This document shows positions 2,171 through 10,500 of a DNA stretch of 21,732 nucleotides, one piece after another. Below the pieces are notes generated by a model. That model did no database searches and was not told where the DNA came from. It saw only the letters and a program-made list of their open reading frames with translations. This stretch comes from a virus. A program made the position numbers and the translations under genes. Where the stretch lies: the IMG/VR virus record IMGVR_UViG_3300008954_000314, positions 1 through 21,732 of that record; one strand, written 5' to 3'. Position 1 is the stretch's first letter; each line of letters begins with the position of its first letter.

Positions 2171-2863
2171 TTAACCTCCGTATGTGGAGTCAGATTCTAA
2201 TGCAACCCAATATGTTAGGTCGTCATTGACTCTGTTAAATTCACTAACTACCTTGTCACTAATATTAATATCATAATCTCCTGGCAACATTTTAAGATTT
2301 TCTGCTTTAAAATTAAAATTAAAATCTGCATTGGTTGTATTATCACCAATAGTGACGGAATAGTTATTTGTTGTAGAATCTGATTTGTCTAATGCAACGA
2401 TTTCTATATCTTGTCCGTTTGAACGAATGGCAATATCTGATACCTGCAAGACAGATGCCGCACGAAGAATATCACTAAACACAGACTGTGTTAATGTGCA
2501 ACTTACCACTGTTTCTGGCATATTAATCTTTTTATTTACTGTTGTCAACAATCTTGGTTCTGAATAGTAATAAGTAACCTCTGTTGAATTATTTTCTTCT
2601 CGTATTTTAACATAATTTTCATGAAATTCATATTCTGGTTTATTAAATAATGAAACTGTTCCTAAGAACTTGCTCAAATCCCAGATACCAAATTCTGTGT
2701 CGAAATCTTCTTCTACAGTTGCTTCTGCCATAACATTCTTGATTGGGGAAATTGTATTTATTACATTTCCTGGTCTAACAAGAATGTTTGAATTAATTGT
2801 AGAGAAGTTTTTAAGAACTTCTAATGTTCTATTTGAAAGGGTTATCGCTGTTTGCGTTGTCAT
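2171..2863 (-). CDS. 45: Sliding clamp gp45 (DNA polymerase processivity factor)
   Basis: This is the trimeric sliding clamp of T4-like replisomes. It tethers DNA polymerase and, in T4, also activates late transcription through gp33 and gp55. Its 230 aa match the T4 clamp length (228). Typical family features are the N-terminal segment LSNRTLEVLKNFSTINSNI and the region VEEDFDTEFGIWDLSKFL, followed by the LFNKPE strand. A second half repeats the clamp fold. A GGAG ribosome-binding site lies 8 nt before the ATG. The preceding gene is a small basic protein; the following gene is fcl, one base after the gp45 stop. Identification rests on remembered family motifs, on length, and on RNase H and gp44 nearby. 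Confidence 0.93.
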   Translation of the reverse strand: MTTQTAITLSNRTLEVLKNFSTINSNILVRPGNVINTISPIKNVMAEATVEEDFDTEFGIWDLSKFLGTVSLFNKPEYEFHENYVKIREENNSTEVTYYYSEPRLLTTVNKKINMPETVVSCTLTQSVFSDILRAASVLQVSDIAIRSNGQDIEIVALDKSDSTTNNYSVTIGDNTTNADFNFNFKAENLKMLPGDYDINISDKVVSEFNRVNDDLTYWVALESDSTYGG

Positions 2864-3074: not shown

Positions 3075-3908
3075 TTAAAACTCCTCTATGTGTTGCATTA
3101 AGTTTTTCAATCTATTATCGATAAAATAATTTAAAATATTATTTCTACTACCTGTAGGCTCTTTTTCAAATTCATTAATTATCATATCTCTAATTTCGTC
3201 AGGTATATAATTAAAATCAATCATTTGTTGGTTTCTTTTCCAGTTTGGACTGTCTGTTAATTCGTCCAAATTCTCTTTTAGTTGACAAATCTTTTTTGCT
3301 CCACAAGGCTTTTGTCTTTTTTCTTTATTTACGAAAGTATCATCGTCAGAAAGAATATTTGGTATTCCGTCTGAAGAATCTCCTTTTATTATATGTTCTA
3401 GGATGAAATTCTCTGGTTCTTCACATGCAATATAACTTTTCTTTAATGGGCTATATTGTTTCACATTTTCATATCTTTGTAATTGTTGAAAGTCTTTATC
3501 ACTTGAAACAATTAATATTTTTTCTTCCTTATTATACTTTTGGCATAAAACTGCGATGATATCATCTGCTTCTACCTTATTAAGTTTTAAGTTTTTATAT
3601 GGAAAATTCAAAGATATTTCATTATACAATGTATTCATAATATCATGTATACTATTCCAATCTAAATCAGATTTATCCCTGTTTCTTTTTCTGTTTGCTT
3701 TATAATATGGATATAAATCTCTGCGCCAATATTTACCACCATCATGACAAATTACTATTTCTCCATACTGGTTTCCAAATTTACTTCTATACATTCGATA
3801 TGTGTTTAATATCAAATGACGGATTATGTCTTCGTTTATTTCCATATTCATTTTTAAAGATTGGTATAAACTTGCTATAATCAACTGATTATTGTCTAAT
3901 AATATAAT
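3075..3908 (-). CDS. rnh: RNase H / 5'-3' exonuclease (T4 Rnh, FEN family), probable ATT start
   Basis: This enzyme removes RNA primers and adjacent DNA from Okazaki fragments. FEN-family motifs, numbered from the proposed start, are: LLD with D5; the HLILN segment; CHDGG (D56) followed by YWRRDLYPYYKANRK; EADD (113-116); SSDKDF (135-140); the VKQYSP segment; and KGDSSDGIPNI (from 175). The first in-frame conventional start is TTG at 3884. That start would remove the N-terminal strand and its metal-binding Asp (the LIDFSQ strand of T4 Rnh). The frame stays open upstream to the stop of the preceding gene at 3924-3926 and contains no ATG or GTG. An AAGGA ribosome-binding site at 3920-3916 is 7 nt before an ATT codon at 3908. 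I therefore start the 277-aa protein there. Function is secure; the start is inferred. Confidence 0.88.
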   Translation of the reverse strand: MILLDNNQLIIASLYQSLKMNMEINEDIIRHLILNTYRMYRSKFGNQYGEIVICHDGGKYWRRDLYPYYKANRKRNRDKSDLDWNSIHDIMNTLYNEISLNFPYKNLKLNKVEADDIIAVLCQKYNKEEKILIVSSDKDFQQLQRYENVKQYSPLKKSYIACEEPENFILEHIIKGDSSDGIPNILSDDDTFVNKEKRQKPCGAKKICQLKENLDELTDSPNWKRNQQMIDFNYIPDEIRDMIINEFEKEPTGSRNNILNYFIDNRLKNLMQHIEEF

Positions 3909-3923
3909 AACGAAATCCTTACT

Positions 3924-4232
3924 TTAAATTTCTGCCCACTGTGTATTACCATCATCTGATTTTATAAAAACAAACAATTTACCACTGTTTGTATTAAACC
4001 ACTCGTCACCCTCTTGTGCCATTTCTGGTACAGAGGTACTCTTAGAGAATTTGGTTATTCTTGTTTTGTTTATTTCTTTCCATCCTCGTTTTTCTCCGTG
4101 TTCGGGAGAATATCCTCGAATGGTTTTAGAGGCAACATATTCTTTACCGTTTTTTCTAACGATATCACCCTTTTTATATTCTTTCAAATTTCCGTTGGGT
4201 TCACGAATTTTAAAATCTTGTATGTTTTCCAT
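3924..4232 (-). CDS. Small two-part protein: carbohydrate-binding-like plus phage virion 'WFNTNSGKLF' motif
   Basis: The 102-aa protein appears to have two short modules. Residues about 16-54 (KEYKKGDIVRKNGKEYVA, then GYSPEHG and GWKEI) follow the pattern of small chitin/carbohydrate-binding modules of the CBM5/12 type: GDIV, then xGKxYVA, then a terminal Trp. Residues about 71-102 (EGDEWFNTNSGKLFVF, ending TQWAEI) match a short motif common in tail-fibre and neck-type structural proteins of marine T4-like phages. A decoration or adhesion protein is plausible, yet the gene sits in a replication/accessory operon. An AGGTAA sequence lies just before the ATG. The gene is followed by rnh, whose frame is the same and begins after this TAA. 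Assignment is by pattern memory only. Confidence 0.6.
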   Translation of the reverse strand: MENIQDFKIREPNGNLKEYKKGDIVRKNGKEYVASKTIRGYSPEHGEKRGWKEINKTRITKFSKSTSVPEMAQEGDEWFNTNSGKLFVFIKSDDGNTQWAEI

Positions 4233-4237
4233 ATTAC

Positions 4238-4621
4238 CTATGACTTCTTCATGTTTTCAAATAACTTTTGTGTGTTACCTATAATTGTGGATTTAGTCTT
4301 TCTGTTCGTCTTTTTTATTGGTTTCTTCTTAACCATAGCATTTTTACATGCATTAATTTTGAGGTCTGCATGTTTTCTCATATAGATTCTATCTTCTTTA
4401 TTGGTGTTTTTTTGCACCCAAAGAGGTTTCTCTGTAATCCACTCCCATATACAATCACCCTTCCAACAGATTTGAATTCTTAGGTCTTTACCCCTCTCAA
4501 ATCCAATCCAATCTTCTTGATTTGCGGTTTTGTATGTCCTTAAAGAAAAATTTGAAGACATTATACCTAACTGGTCTTTCATATAAGTTTCATATGAACT
4601 ATTTGATAATTGATTTTTCAT
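4238..4621 (-). CDS. Hypothetical protein, 127 aa, Trp- and Lys-rich
   Basis: I do not recognise this protein. It has a central Trp-rich stretch (DWIGFERGK, then CWKGDCIWEWITEKPLW, about residues 37-68) with two cysteines four residues apart. A lysine-rich C-terminal part follows (VKKKPIKKTNRKTKS), suggesting nucleic-acid or anionic-surface binding. No signal peptide or membrane segment is visible. The first ATG is at 4621, just after the stop of the thioredoxin-glutamine synthetase gene, but I see no good ribosome-binding site there. An internal ATG at residue 21 has AGG 4 nt upstream and is an alternative start. The 3' end is 5 nt before the next gene's ATG. It may work with the synthetase upstream, but only adjacency supports that. 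Confidence 0.6.
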   Translation of the reverse strand: MKNQLSNSSYETYMKDQLGIMSSNFSLRTYKTANQEDWIGFERGKDLRIQICWKGDCIWEWITEKPLWVQKNTNKEDRIYMRKHADLKINACKNAMVKKKPIKKTNRKTKSTIIGNTQKLFENMKKS

Positions 4622-4625
4622 TTTA

Positions 4626-6125
4626 TTATGTAGTTATAAGAAGTTCTTCGTTTATTTTAATTATTGTATCATATAAGTAATTAAATGCTTCATATGGGTC
4701 AATATTAGCCGCTGGTCTTCTATCCTCTAAATGACCTTTTCCCCCATTCTGAATTGTTGATTGGGGTATTCGGATAGAACTGCTTCTGTCCATTTCACCC
4801 CATGTGAATTCTTCTATAGAGGAAGTTTCGTGATTACCTGTCAGTCTTCTGTTATTTTCTTCACCATAAACATCTATTGATTCGTTATGGTATCTTTGCA
4901 TACTGACACATAATAGATTGAGGTATGCAACATCAGATTCTCTCCTCATATAGTCTGTGGAGAAATTAATGTGTCCACCAGAACCATTCCAATCACCATC
5001 TACTGGTTTTGGATTGTAAGAAATTGCTAATCCCATATCTTCCGCAATTCGTTGAAGTAAAAACCTAGAGATAATTACATCATCCGCTGCCTGAAGTGCT
5101 AACTTTGGAGTGGTTTGATATTCCCATTGTGAAAGCATTACTTCTGCATTTGTGCCTGCTATACCTATTCCAACTTTATTGCATAGTGTAGCATGTGTTT
5201 CTGCTAACTTTCTTCCTTTAGTTACCTCTGCTCCAACTCCACAGTAATATTTTCCTTGTGGTGGTGGAGTATCTCCTTCATAATCTGACCAACCTATGGG
5301 ATTTCCTGTAATTGGGTCTACTATGGTATATTCTTGTTCAAACCCAACGAGTAGCATATCACTTTGTTCTTCTCTTTGTTTTAGTTCTACTTCTCTTTTA
5401 TTTACTGTGTTTGCTAATTTTGACCTAGTATTTGTTTCATGTGCATTTCCTTCAATATTAACAACCTCACATAAAACAATGTATGAAATTGGTTTTCCGT
5501 TTGTTCTTGAAGGTGGGTCTAGAGGATTCTCCACAATCTTAATTGGGGACAACCCACAATCACTATTCTCTGTTGTTGCTTGCATTGTACTAGAACCATC
5601 ATAAGACCATTTTGGCACCATCCTCATTAACATCTGAGGGTTGTCTGGAATCCTTGCGAGTGGCATTCTTTGATATCTTGTTTTGCTTCTAATATTCTTT
5701 GGTGAATCTCCATCCAACCAAACATATTCAAACTTTAAAGTTTCTATTTCATTTTGTTGTGGTTGTTGTGGTCTTGGAGGTGGTGCTGGCATTTCTTCAC
5801 CCTTTGCCCATTTTTCTAAATCACCCTTTTCTTTAAATCCACAAGCCATGTTTCCTGTTTCAGCATCAAGAAATAGTGGAGTACCACATTGTGCTTTATA
5901 TTTTGTTTTTGCTTCGTTTGCTCTTTCTGCCTGTTCGGGTTTGGTTATGTCTAGTGTGGTTATTTCATAACCTTCTTTTACTAATTCTTCGACAACTGGG
6001 TCAGCCTTTTTACACCAACCACAGCCAGGATTCATGATATAAAGTAGGTCATGCTTTTCCTTTTTCTTTTTATTAGTCTTTTTAGACTTTTTAGTCTTAT
6101 CTTTACCACAGTTTTTACAAGCCAT
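4626..6125 (-). CDS. Thioredoxin/glutaredoxin-like domain fused to type II glutamine synthetase
   Basis: Glutamine synthetase joins glutamate and ammonia using ATP. This 499-aa protein has a CKNC knuckle (residues 3-6) and a Lys-rich segment. A thioredoxin-fold domain follows at about 25-110, with active-site CGWC (35-38) and cis-Pro in CGTP (P83). A Pro/Gln linker (112-126) leads to a full type II synthetase (about 130-499). Visible synthetase motifs are WSYDGSST (D176), GFEQEY (E263, E265), YYCGVGAE, AGTNAEVM, the WEYQ motif, GHINFST (H385), RRLTGNHETS and GHLEDRRPAAN (E467, R469-R470). These align with the Glu, His and Arg residues known from eukaryotic GSII, so activity is expected. The synthetase part (about 370 aa) has normal family length. 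AAGGAAG precedes the ATG by 7 nt. A fused redox domain is not typical of GSII; redox control or targeting is inference. Confidence 0.92.
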   Translation of the reverse strand: MACKNCGKDKTKKSKKTNKKKKEKHDLLYIMNPGCGWCKKADPVVEELVKEGYEITTLDITKPEQAERANEAKTKYKAQCGTPLFLDAETGNMACGFKEKGDLEKWAKGEEMPAPPPRPQQPQQNEIETLKFEYVWLDGDSPKNIRSKTRYQRMPLARIPDNPQMLMRMVPKWSYDGSSTMQATTENSDCGLSPIKIVENPLDPPSRTNGKPISYIVLCEVVNIEGNAHETNTRSKLANTVNKREVELKQREEQSDMLLVGFEQEYTIVDPITGNPIGWSDYEGDTPPPQGKYYCGVGAEVTKGRKLAETHATLCNKVGIGIAGTNAEVMLSQWEYQTTPKLALQAADDVIISRFLLQRIAEDMGLAISYNPKPVDGDWNGSGGHINFSTDYMRRESDVAYLNLLCVSMQRYHNESIDVYGEENNRRLTGNHETSSIEEFTWGEMDRSSSIRIPQSTIQNGGKGHLEDRRPAANIDPYEAFNYLYDTIIKINEELLITT

Positions 6126-6137
6126 TATATTACTTCC

Positions 6138-7739
6138 TTATTCTGGTTTCCAAAATATAAATACAGGTTCATACTTTAAGTATTTCCCATCAACTTGACA
6201 GTAATTTTTACATGTGGGTTTACCATCTTCACCCATTCTATTTTGTCCTGGCATTCCTTCTAATGCCATCTTCATCGTATATTTATACATCATACCACAA
6301 GATTCGAGGATGTCAATACTATCTTTCTCTATAGGTAGATATTTTCCACTCACCAACAAATCCGCAACATTCCATGCCATGTATCTGCCTGGTCGTAAGT
6401 ACTCCGCACAAGTTTCTAATGTTGGTGCAAGAAATCCATGGCGCCATGAATCGTATGATGAGCCAAATTTCTTGTATGATTGGTTTTCATCTTCGCTATA
6501 TGCTTCCCGATTAAAATATGGCGGAGATGTAAAAATGAAGTCCAACTTACCCTTATACTTTTTAAAATCTGGGTGAACATGAATTACTTCTGAACCTTCT
6601 TGGAAGATTTCATAAGTATTTGTTTCGGAAAAGAATGGATTTCCTCTATAAGTTTTGGTATTGTAAAAATCTGCCAAAGAAGCATACTTGCTGTAATCAC
6701 CATCATCGAGAAAATTGTCAGGATTAGGGTCAGTACCAACATAATGGACCCTGCGGTCATCCCTAACACCCATAGCACCGAGTATACGACCACCCCAACC
6801 AGCCGATGGGTCATAGATGTTAATGACTTCTTGGTCTTTGAGGTCTTCTGTAAATCTCTCATATAAGTATTTAGCAGTCATTGGAGGGAAGTTTACCGCA
6901 GGTTGAATATATCCAATACGATATGCGGCAAATGCTTTTGGAAACATCTTCTTTCCCTTTTGATATACACGAATATTGTATCGTTTATCGTCTGACATAT
7001 TCTCGATATCAAATGTAGAATAGTGTCTATACTCCAACCATCCTTTATCTTTATATTCTTGTACTTCATCCTTTGTTAAATTAAGAATTTCACTTTGTTC
7101 TACTTGGAAGTATCCACTATTTAACCCTTCTCGTATCTTTACTTCTTCTAACATAAAATCATATCCCTTAAAGATATTACGATTATTATGAAATGCATCC
7201 ATCCAAGCATGTGCATCTTCTGTTGCAACTATTGCATACTTCTTATTGTTTGTAAACGCACTCTTTGCGTGTTCATACAGAGAATCCCTACGAAAATGGC
7301 GCATTCCACCCCTCACCATCTTGTCGAGGTGTCTATCATCTGCAAATAAATCATATATGGAATATCCGTTATCTTTTTCTGTATAGTTGATGCGTGTCTG
7401 CATCATATTACTGAACCATTGGTCTGCTTCGCCACCAATTCTGGACTTGTTGATAATCACATCATCTTCAACATCGGAAAGTTCATCACTATATGCAAAC
7501 TTATGTACAGGGTATTCTGCAATCTTATTAAATTGCTCTATAATTGCTTCTTCGTTTTTGCCTGTTCTTGGTGGGCAGCCATACTCGTCCCATGATTCCT
7601 TTACCACTTTTCGGAATTTAATTACCCATTCCTTAAACTGGTCGGGTGTCATTTCCAAAAGGTCTTCAAAATTGCAATTAATATCTGAATTAATCACATG
7701 GTCGTTTCGTTCGTAAAAATGTTTTGTATCTGTCATCAT
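6138..7739 (-). CDS. DNA methyltransferase-like protein with a large novel N-terminal region
   Basis: This 533-aa protein has a C-terminal methyltransferase-like fold. DPSAGWGGRILGA (from residue 310) fits the S-adenosylmethionine-binding motif I, GTDPNP (335-340) follows, and TSPPYF (404-409) is the catalytic motif IV of amino-methyltransferases acting on adenine N6 or cytosine N4. A late segment RPGRYMAWNVAD fits a further strand of the fold. Motif I precedes motif IV. About 280 N-terminal residues match nothing I know; they contain a GGMRHFRRDSLYEHAK segment and could hold target recognition or another activity. Translation starts at an ATG overlapping the gp46 stop (ATGA), so the gene is coupled to gp46. 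No restriction endonuclease is adjacent, which suggests genome self-modification or a regulatory role. A base or nucleotide modification enzyme other than a methylase is possible. Confidence 0.75.
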   Translation of the reverse strand: MMTDTKHFYERNDHVINSDINCNFEDLLEMTPDQFKEWVIKFRKVVKESWDEYGCPPRTGKNEEAIIEQFNKIAEYPVHKFAYSDELSDVEDDVIINKSRIGGEADQWFSNMMQTRINYTEKDNGYSIYDLFADDRHLDKMVRGGMRHFRRDSLYEHAKSAFTNNKKYAIVATEDAHAWMDAFHNNRNIFKGYDFMLEEVKIREGLNSGYFQVEQSEILNLTKDEVQEYKDKGWLEYRHYSTFDIENMSDDKRYNIRVYQKGKKMFPKAFAAYRIGYIQPAVNFPPMTAKYLYERFTEDLKDQEVINIYDPSAGWGGRILGAMGVRDDRRVHYVGTDPNPDNFLDDGDYSKYASLADFYNTKTYRGNPFFSETNTYEIFQEGSEVIHVHPDFKKYKGKLDFIFTSPPYFNREAYSEDENQSYKKFGSSYDSWRHGFLAPTLETCAEYLRPGRYMAWNVADLLVSGKYLPIEKDSIDILESCGMMYKYTMKMALEGMPGQNRMGEDGKPTCKNYCQVDGKYLKYEPVFIFWKPE

Positions 7740-9448
7740 TTTATTCTACTAAAGTTATTTTTCTTTTCAAACACAATATGGTTCTCAAACTTATCCGTCA
7801 TTGTATCAGATTTATGGGAAATTACAAATATATTTGCTCGATTTCCGAAAGATGTTAAGATTTTTAGAAATTCTTCAGTGCCAACTGCATCTAGGCTGGA
7901 ATCAAATACCTCATCCAGAACCAATAAGTTACAATTAACACTATTCTTTAATCTGGCAATTTCTCTCCATGCTAAAAGCAAAGACAAGTCAATTCTTAGC
8001 CGTTCTCCTTCACTGAAACTGTTGTATGTAAATTCATCTCTATGTCGGCTTTTTATAGTTTCTACAAAATTCTCATCTAAATTAAACTGACAAAAGAAAT
8101 CCATGTCTGTAAGGTACTTATTAATAAGTCTATTCATTATTGGTAAATAATGTTTGATAATCTTTGCTTTAATGCCACTATCTTTTAAAAGAGTAGAAGC
8201 AATGCTATAATAATGCTTATCCTCCACCAATTCTTTTCTTCTTTCGACATGTTCTTTACCTTCACCAATTAATTTATTTAATTCATCTTTTGTTTCTTGT
8301 ACTTCTGTTCCTTCGTTCAACACTTCTTCGATTTTATTTTGTATTGTATTGATATATTTCAGTGCTACATTTGTTTTGGTTTGTTTTTCATTTATTTCAA
8401 CTTCAAAATTATCTATAGAATTCAATATTTCATTAATTTCCGTCATTCTTTCACCAGTAATTTTTATGTTTTCTGTCAAGTCTGAAATACCATCTTCTAC
8501 TTCTTTTCGTTCACTTGCTTTATCATCAAACATAGATTTTTTGTGATGTTCTTTAATATCTTGTTTACATGACGGACATGTATCATTTTGTTCATAGAAC
8601 TTTACATTCTTTTCTATGGTTTTAACTTTATTCTTTAATTGCTGTTCCAACCCTTCCATTTTTAAAAGTCTTTTTGGAACATCATCTTTATCTTCTATTT
8701 TATTAAAAAGAGATTCAATCTTATCTTGTAATTCTTTAATTCCTTCTTGTAGTTTTGAAACCTCTTTATTGTTGGTTTCTATTTCGTTTTTATATCCTTC
8801 TATTGAATCAGAAGATTTCTTTTCTAGTGTATCAATTAATTTTTGTTTTTCGTCTATCTTACTTTTTGCAATTTCAATTTTAGTATCAATATCTTTGATA
8901 TATTCTTTTACCATCTGTAGTCTTGAACGAACCAAAGTATTCATAATAGAGAATACATCAATATCTAAAAGGTTTTCTACAACCAATCTTCTATCTGTTG
9001 TGGATAATTTCATAAACGGAACATAATTAGATGAACCAAGAATAACCACCTGACAAAAGGATTTATAGGTCATTTTTAAAATCTGTTCTTCTAAAATCTT
9101 TTGATAATCTCTAGATTTGGCATCTTGGTCTAATAAATCACCATTCTTATAAATTTCAAATATCTTTGGTTTTATTCCACGAATTATTTTATATTCATCT
9201 CTACCAACTGAAAATTCTATTTCTACTACACAATCCTTATTATTAATAGAATTAATTAATTGGGGTATCTTTGTCCCTCGAAAAGACTTTCCAAATAAGG
9301 AATATGTTAATGCATCAAGCATTGTTGATTTACCTGCACCATTATACCCAGATATTAATGTGTTGTTACTCTTTATGAGATTTATAGTTGTTTTATAATT
9401 TCCTGTTGAAAGGAAATTTCTATAAGAAAGTGTTTTAAATATTATCAT
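7736..9448 (-). CDS. 46: Recombination nuclease ATPase subunit gp46 (Rad50-like)
   Basis: This SMC-type ATPase works with gp47 to process DNA ends for recombination-dependent replication and, in T4, host DNA degradation. The 570-aa protein has a Walker A motif GYNGAGKST (residues 34-42) and long predicted coiled coils rich in Lys/Glu/Ile (about 175-285 and 305-415). A zinc hook CPSC (291-294) lies at the apex. The ABC signature FSEGERLRIDLSL (478-490) and Walker B LLVLDEVFDSSLD (508-520) are near the C-terminus, with a following His-containing switch (ISHKSDTM). Length matches T4 gp46 (560). The start overlaps the gp47 stop by 4 nt, and the stop overlaps the methyltransferase gene by 4 nt. 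Confidence 0.97.
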   Translation of the reverse strand: MIIFKTLSYRNFLSTGNYKTTINLIKSNNTLISGYNGAGKSTMLDALTYSLFGKSFRGTKIPQLINSINNKDCVVEIEFSVGRDEYKIIRGIKPKIFEIYKNGDLLDQDAKSRDYQKILEEQILKMTYKSFCQVVILGSSNYVPFMKLSTTDRRLVVENLLDIDVFSIMNTLVRSRLQMVKEYIKDIDTKIEIAKSKIDEKQKLIDTLEKKSSDSIEGYKNEIETNNKEVSKLQEGIKELQDKIESLFNKIEDKDDVPKRLLKMEGLEQQLKNKVKTIEKNVKFYEQNDTCPSCKQDIKEHHKKSMFDDKASERKEVEDGISDLTENIKITGERMTEINEILNSIDNFEVEINEKQTKTNVALKYINTIQNKIEEVLNEGTEVQETKDELNKLIGEGKEHVERRKELVEDKHYYSIASTLLKDSGIKAKIIKHYLPIMNRLINKYLTDMDFFCQFNLDENFVETIKSRHRDEFTYNSFSEGERLRIDLSLLLAWREIARLKNSVNCNLLVLDEVFDSSLDAVGTEEFLKILTSFGNRANIFVISHKSDTMTDKFENHIVFEKKNNFSRIK

Positions 9449-10500
9449 ATACTCAAACTTTCCATATACAAATCTTTGATAATCTTCTTCATTTTTGTTT
9501 TATCTTTTACTTCTTCAATTAAATCTATTTCGTTATTGATTAGTGTAACAGTATCTTGCGCCAAGTCAACAATTTCTTCCTGAGTCCATTCGGAATTAAT
9601 TAGTTCTTCTACTACTGTAATTTTTGCCACACCACAATCATAGAGTTTATCCATAAACCTTTCAAAAGAATAAGGATGTTTTTTATTTTCCACATATAAT
9701 TTTACATAAGCACCCTTTAAATATCCACAATCCAACTTGTCGCTATCAACTGGTCCATCTTCATCGTTATATGTTACTGAATGGAACATTTTATGGGGGT
9801 TTTGAATAAATTCAACATCTCTTGTTTCTGTATCTAATACATGAAACCCCTTTTGTTCTTTTAAATCTGCAAAGGTTATTTGATATTGTGTTCCTAAATA
9901 ATAAATGTTTCCGTGTTCTTGACGACAATGAAAATGTCCTGTGTATACCTTCTCGTATCTACCAAATAAATTTGCATCCATTCCACCGTCATATTTAACC
10001 CCTCTCATCACATCATAACCACGAAGTTCAAGATGTCCAATAAGAATTGGTGCCGCTGCAGTCTTGATAAACTCTATAGATTTATCATAATTTTCTTTAT
10101 TTACCCAAGGAAGAAGTGCAATATCTAATCCATCGAAATTTACCACAGCAGGTTCTTCATATAATATTAAATCATTACCAAACAATTCTCGAATTGAATT
10201 GATTGTATTTGTATTGCGATAATACACATCATGGTTGCCAAGAATACAATGTAACTCTACACCTTCCTCTCTTAGTTTGTCCATGAATCTGGTTCGGACT
10301 TGATTGAGGATGTTGAAGTTTACAAACTTCCTTCTATCCATCAAATCGCCTGCATGGATTATCGTCTTTATGTTATTCTTTTTGATGTATGGGAAAAATA
10401 CATCGTCAAAAAACTCCATAAAATAATCTAAAAATAATTGGCTATCGCCTCTTGCACCGAAGTGCGTATCATTTATCAGTGCTATCTTCACTCTTTTCAT
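9445..10500 (-). CDS. 47: Recombination nuclease subunit gp47 (Mre11-like)
   Basis: This is the metallophosphoesterase nuclease subunit paired with gp46. The 351-aa protein has the Mre11 phosphoesterase motifs in order: NDTHFG (D11, H13), HAGDLMDRR (D52), ILGNHD (N89-H90-D91), GHLE (155-158) and TGHFHCR (187-193). Length is close to T4 gp47 (339). The listed ATG at 10500 lies 32 nt inside the gp55 gene, with AGGA touching the ATG, a poor spacing. A GTG at 10491 (codon 4) has AGGA 8 nt upstream and gives MKIALINDTHFG, an equally natural N-terminus, so the real start may be 10491. The end overlaps gp46 by 4 nt. Confidence 0.95.
   Translation of the reverse strand: MKRVKIALINDTHFGARGDSQLFLDYFMEFFDDVFFPYIKKNNIKTIIHAGDLMDRRKFVNFNILNQVRTRFMDKLREEGVELHCILGNHDVYYRNTNTINSIRELFGNDLILYEEPAVVNFDGLDIALLPWVNKENYDKSIEFIKTAAAPILIGHLELRGYDVMRGVKYDGGMDANLFGRYEKVYTGHFHCRQEHGNIYYLGTQYQITFADLKEQKGFHVLDTETRDVEFIQNPHKMFHSVTYNDEDGPVDSDKLDCGYLKGAYVKLYVENKKHPYSFERFMDKLYDCGVAKITVVEELINSEWTQEEIVDLAQDTVTLINNEIDLIEEVKDKTKMKKIIKDLYMESLSI

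Follow-up and report, generated by a model that had tools for sequence, protein, structure and literature searches.

What might a phage gain from joining a thioredoxin-like (Trx) domain to a glutamine synthetase (GS) within a single protein? The question is posed by one gene on a 21.7-kb piece of an uncultured marine T4-like phage genome, available as a virus record and called the window hereafter (the whole stretch of 21,732 nucleotides that was analyzed). The phage origin and T4-like context proposed by the initial annotation of this DNA are borne out by recognizable genes for the capsid protein gp23, the portal, the gp45 sliding clamp, RNase H, and gp46/gp47-like proteins. The gp23 of the window has its closest counterparts, at 60% to 62% identity, in Methylophilales phage Melnitz and Pelagibacter phage HTVC008M.

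Gene order around the fusion gene

The Trx-GS fusion gene occupies positions 4626 to 6125 on the minus strand (read from 6125 to 4626) and, judged from the open reading frame and its homologues, encodes 499 amino acids plus stop from an ATG start. Nine nucleotides before this ATG, reading of the sequence reveals a Shine-Dalgarno-like AAGGA element (6135 to 6139, minus strand) that is overlapped by the stop codon of the gene upstream. The latter (6138 to 7739, minus strand) encodes a DNA-methyltransferase-like protein of 533 amino acids with a TSPPY motif and lies directly upstream of the fusion in most contigs that carry it; the C-terminal half of this protein alone resembles known phage methyltransferases (25% to 31%). 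Farther upstream and again on the minus strand follow a gp46-like recombination ATPase (7736 to 9448; AAA_23 and SMC_N) and a gp47-like nuclease (9445 to 10500; Metallophos), each assigned as gp46 or gp47 by its position.

Directly downstream of the fusion, the same strand encodes conserved proteins of 127 amino acids (4238 to 4621) and 102 amino acids (3924 to 4232) for which neither Pfam nor PHROG gave a match at E ≤ 0.001 and whose genes are kept between the fusion and RNase H in most relatives. They are followed by a T4 RNase H-like 5'-3' exonuclease (3075 to 3884, minus strand) and the gp45 sliding clamp (2171 to 2863, minus strand). Because these genes share one strand with small gaps between them, the fusion and its neighbors very likely form a single transcription unit. 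Rfam gave no match to structured RNAs in the window, glnA riboswitches included.

Adjoining gp45, positions 257 to 2169 of the window encode a GDP-mannose dehydratase and an epimerase of the GDP-fucose synthase kind. A 123-kb relative (L259-L260) carries an apparent nucleotide-sugar/glycosyltransferase cassette of around 14 kb, recognized by eye, between gp43 and a clamp-loader gene, and its gp46 and gp47 genes have between them an open reading frame of 155 amino acids (L260:18571-19038) that is absent from the window.

The glutamine synthetase and thioredoxin halves

Residues 128 to 499 of the fusion protein (4629 to 5744, minus strand) constitute a type II GS (GSII) with intact catalytic residues according to profiles, alignment, and structural model. 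The GSII match spans residues 128 to 489 (E = 8e-78 to maize GS 2d3a with phmmer), and the Pfam profile Gln-synt_C scores 69.1 bits at a gathering cut-off of 24; all 15 of 15 aligned relatives match Gln-synt_C and 13 of the 15 also Gln-synt_N (E ≤ 0.01). With 297.8 bits, the score of the NCBIfam GlnII profile NF041605 far exceeds those of the profiles for type I (TIGR00653, 56.8 bits), type III, and gamma-glutamylputrescine synthetase, with TIGR03105 at 42.7 bits. The fusion lies under the GlnII naming cut-off of 500 bits, a value that fails to split members from non-members because all four scored cellular GSII, which are bacterial and include one from SAR86, miss it too (354 to 496 bits).

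Eighteen catalytic or strictly conserved positions of maize GS (D56, G57, S58, E129, E131, E192, Q197, E199, G245, H249, N251, S253, R291, E297, R311, R316, E330, and R332) are identical in all 27 aligned fused GS rows, in agreement with the active-site Asp, Glu, His, and Arg motifs described initially. Neither the alignment nor the overall fold shows a displacement of active-site residues. The best GSII match of the full-length AlphaFold2 model (mean pLDDT 83.9, from a 32-row alignment) is S. coelicolor 4bax, with a TM score of 0.92 by target length and an E-value of 4.7e-38. The phage enzyme thus shares its fold and catalytic residues with bacterial GlnII/GSII (NF041605 and 4bax) and maize 2d3a, at 37% to 38% identity to 4bax and maize in structural alignments, but differs from the bacterial enzymes in forming a separate viral clade and in possessing an extra loop around residues 240 to 256 as well as the N-terminal thioredoxin-fold domain. 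To call it "eukaryote-type", as had been done, is misleading, since the cellular GSII genes closest to it are those of bacteria and archaea. Three cysteines (C219, C295, and C315) are invariant in phage GS, both fused and unfused, and a comparison of the two forms for candidate redox targets revealed no GS cysteine peculiar to the fused one. We infer that the GS half is catalytically active, which its sequence supports well, and the fusion gene is probably functional.

The N-terminal part begins with a Cys/Lys-rich leader (MACKNCGK...; residues 1 to 25; 6051 to 6125, minus strand), which reads MACKCGKNxxCKC in many relatives. It is followed by the thioredoxin-fold domain, delimited by alignment and AlphaFold2 model as residues 26 to 110 (5796 to 6050, minus strand), and by a Pro/Gln-rich linker as initially proposed, located at about residues 111 to 127 (5745 to 5795, minus strand). 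Leader and linker are consistent with flexible segments because model confidence is low there (low pLDDT in the linker). The CxxC motif ascribed to this domain is recovered as CGWC at residues 35 to 38 (6012 to 6023, minus strand) in both sequence and alignment, and C35, C38, C80, and C95 are invariant in 44 aligned Trx-domain sequences, as is the cis-Pro motif TP (T82-P83).

The separate AlphaFold2 model of the Trx domain (pLDDT 92.7, pTM 0.85) is ordered beta-alpha-beta-alpha-beta-beta-alpha; among PDB entries, it matches thioredoxins with TM scores of about 0.62 to 0.69 by query length. By structure prediction, the N-terminal part thus has a thioredoxin fold. Profile searches clearly recognized only the synthetase half, with the Trx domain staying below the Pfam cut-offs for Glrx-like (22.0 versus 26), Thioredoxin (PF00085; 18.1 versus 23.5), and glutaredoxin (PF00462; 14.0 versus 22.9), and the PHROG "thioredoxin domain" giving a sub-threshold match to this part (E = 2.5e-4). 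Phage thioredoxin/glutaredoxin proteins of the T4 NrdC type (PHROG 22) share the fold and a CxxC motif, but the domain of the fusion is distinguished from them by its CGWC, the additional invariant C80 and C95, the Pro/Gln linker, and its Pfam scores below cut-off.

Recurrence and evolution among phages

The uninterrupted frame of 499 amino acids noticed initially is confirmed on the minus strand of the window and recurs beyond it, with at least 29 further IMG/VR contigs encoding the same fusion without interruption (loci of one contig merged). A first scan gave nine loci, and more were obtained from scans with the Trx-like domain and with alignments. GS identity of these relatives to the window ranges from 87% down to around 43% to 44%. 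The commonest gene order is gp47-gp46-methyltransferase-TrxGS-127aa-102aa-RNase H-gp45, often with fcl-gmd following, and the position of the fusion between gp46 and gp45 of the T4-type replication cluster is conserved. At this same locus, around 25 further contigs have a GSII without Trx domain. GSII relatives are encoded by at least 553 viral stretches overall, so that GSII is common among phages in environmental data.

Of 50,697 phage records, only 4 contain GSII, all of them from uncultured huge phages (LR756501-3 and LR745206) with matches limited to the GS part. Their enzymes are GSII as well (41% to 42% identity), but all 3 of the 4 genes that were inspected are devoid of a Trx domain. 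The same 50,697 records hold no relative of the Trx domain at E ≤ 0.01, and no cultured phage relatives of either the fusion or the Trx domain were found. Likewise, the domain is absent from all 80 of the closest cellular GSII loci, one of which (L168) has a masked N-terminal stretch. GS has been reported in nine moraphages (PMC12619734) and in viruses of SAR86 (PMC10721903), which resemble the gene studied here as viral auxiliary metabolic genes, GS type aside; phage GS also features in PMC13037316, and the legend of Fig. 7C in PMC1821046 mentions type II GS in a "GOS viral" sequence group. No description of a phage thioredoxin-GS fusion was found in the open-access literature. The novelty claimed by the initial annotation therefore holds for the fusion, which is absent from annotated phages and appears undescribed so far, and not for the GSII half alone, a phage gene that is already known and occurs in many T4-like contigs.

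A FastTree phylogeny of 153 GS sequences places the phage GS of the T4-type locus and six more viral sequences in a group of 57 (SH support 100) that excludes all 79 near cellular GSII. The phage GSII described here is thus a clade distinct from its nearest cellular counterparts, and the GSII of huge phages is placed outside of it. Unfused forms occupy the earliest branches of a careful 54-row tree with six changes of the fused/unfused state, showing that the Trx domain was gained within the GSII clade and then changed repeatedly through gains and losses. Within fused groups, two members without the domain (L008 and L051) look like cases of Trx-domain loss because they still have a linker-like stub and a leader that contains Cys. 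For another pair (L017 and L018), nearly identical Trx domains (dS 0.37) are joined to far more diverged GS parts (dS 2.2), which suggests domain exchange by recombination between the Trx and GS parts. Both halves are under purifying selection, with dN/dS in informative pairs of 0.07 to 0.21 for GS and 0.08 to 0.22 for Trx.

The Trx domain is also encoded without GSII at 47 loci, where a Pro-rich linker leads to other C-terminal tails. Some of these are modules of about 60 residues with a helical look, others are of a KMRYDMYKHVESRM type, and others end in LDRLLNHLGVK. One GS-less type has as neighbors gp32, a gene of RecA/UvsX type, and a 5'-3' exonuclease, and another is found near an IMPDH/GMP-reductase gene. 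Because these copies sit on other tails near replication or purine genes, the Trx domain is, as far as gene content tells, a portable module of marine phages that is tied to replication and nucleotide metabolism. No GS was detected in 18 partial Trx-only contigs, a set without positive control. At loci L211-L258 (without L216), L023, L027, and L028, a CGWC/QCGTP Trx-like domain with Pro-rich linker is attached to several unrelated short tails.

Possible functions of the fusion protein

We consider it fairly probable that the fusion gives these uncultured marine T4-like phages a bifunctional protein, in which an active GSII is combined with a tethered dithiol/disulfide module. Its C-terminal 370 residues would act as an ordinary GSII (L-Glu + NH4+ + ATP -> L-Gln + ADP + Pi) that, made together with replication proteins, would provide more glutamine to the synthesis of purines, CTP, and amino acids in the infected cell. 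GSII is free of the adenylylation control found in many GSI enzymes, and the phage GSII would escape control by adenylylation and PII, to which many hosts subject their GSI; the phage enzyme would therefore run whatever the nitrogen status of the host. No glutamine amidotransferases (PF00117 and PF13522) were found in nine GS-bearing contigs, and the glutamine would therefore feed host enzymes.

The N-terminal module would be a dithiol/disulfide thioredoxin fold on a flexible Pro/Gln linker, and ten such modules would encircle the GS if the usual GSII decamer forms. Its target is the least certain part of the proposal. As a first guess, the module may keep its own GS or that of decamer neighbors reduced and active, a role for which thioredoxin acting in trans on some algal and plant GS would be a precedent. 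Overexpression of Trx m in tobacco raises GS activity and stability (PMC8219043), and the same paper cites thioredoxin-linked activation of Chlamydomonas GS. Thioredoxin meets a type II GS in these systems too, but as a separate protein, while the link is covalent here and regulation hypothetical. A redox switch or protection of GSII in cis, which would couple glutamine supply, and with it nucleotide synthesis, to redox conditions within infected cells, is a tentative reading that we keep hypothetical because the GS cysteines are alike in fused and unfused forms. For the same reason, the redox-sensing role suggested initially has gained no specific support. The proposal has against it that the GS shows no dedicated cysteine target for the Trx domain and that the same domain is found on non-GS tails and may thus have a task unrelated to GS.

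Such a task could be that of an independent reductase for other clients, e.g., the host ribonucleotide reductase, with GS merely as its carrier. In T4, ribonucleotide reductase is served by a phage-encoded thioredoxin, and both the unrelated tails of the domain and its occurrence near a purine-metabolism gene would fit this scenario. We nevertheless find it rather doubtful, as the large subunit of ribonucleotide reductase was not found in eight partial fused-type contigs and phages with GS have the Trx domain in fused form only, with a separate gene in 0 of 17 partial contigs with unfused GS. The location of the fusion gene inside the gp46/47-RNase H-gp45 cluster could instead hint at tethering, i.e., that the Trx domain anchors GS to the replication complex or to a host protein with redox chemistry being secondary, much as T7 DNA polymerase employs host thioredoxin. 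Some GS-less Trx proteins with Pro-rich linkers and coiled or helical tails are indeed encoded beside gp32-uvsX-exonuclease, and the apparent swap of the domain between the GS backbones of L017 and L018 points the same way. However, all 44 sequences retain four cysteines, the two of CGWC included, which is more than a pure adaptor would need, and we view tethering as unlikely.

The initial annotation had also considered that the ligase may use a different amine or carboxylate. The nearby methyltransferase-like gene and gmd/fcl as well as the glycan-type cassette of the 123-kb relative could be read in this sense, for instance as pointing to DNA or glycan modification, but every catalytic residue is that of a glutamate-ammonia ligase and the GlnII profile stands far above its alternatives, leaving this idea unsupported and highly improbable. 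A join of two genes by chance or assembly, or a decaying gene, has a negligible probability given the 29 other contigs with conserved synteny, open frames, and purifying selection; recurrence in separate assemblies rules out an artefact or chance fusion.

Nitrogen is scarce across much of the ocean, and phage DNA needs glutamine nitrogen. The presence of GS among replication genes, its purifying selection in a broad group of uncultured T4-like phages, and its redox domain in many of them suggest that the replication programme of these phages includes nitrogen assimilation. With fused and unfused GS at one locus, they offer a natural comparison for the thioredoxin control of type II GS, which has been studied in algae and plants where the two are separate proteins. 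The fusion thereby provides a testable link of nitrogen supply, redox state, and virus replication.
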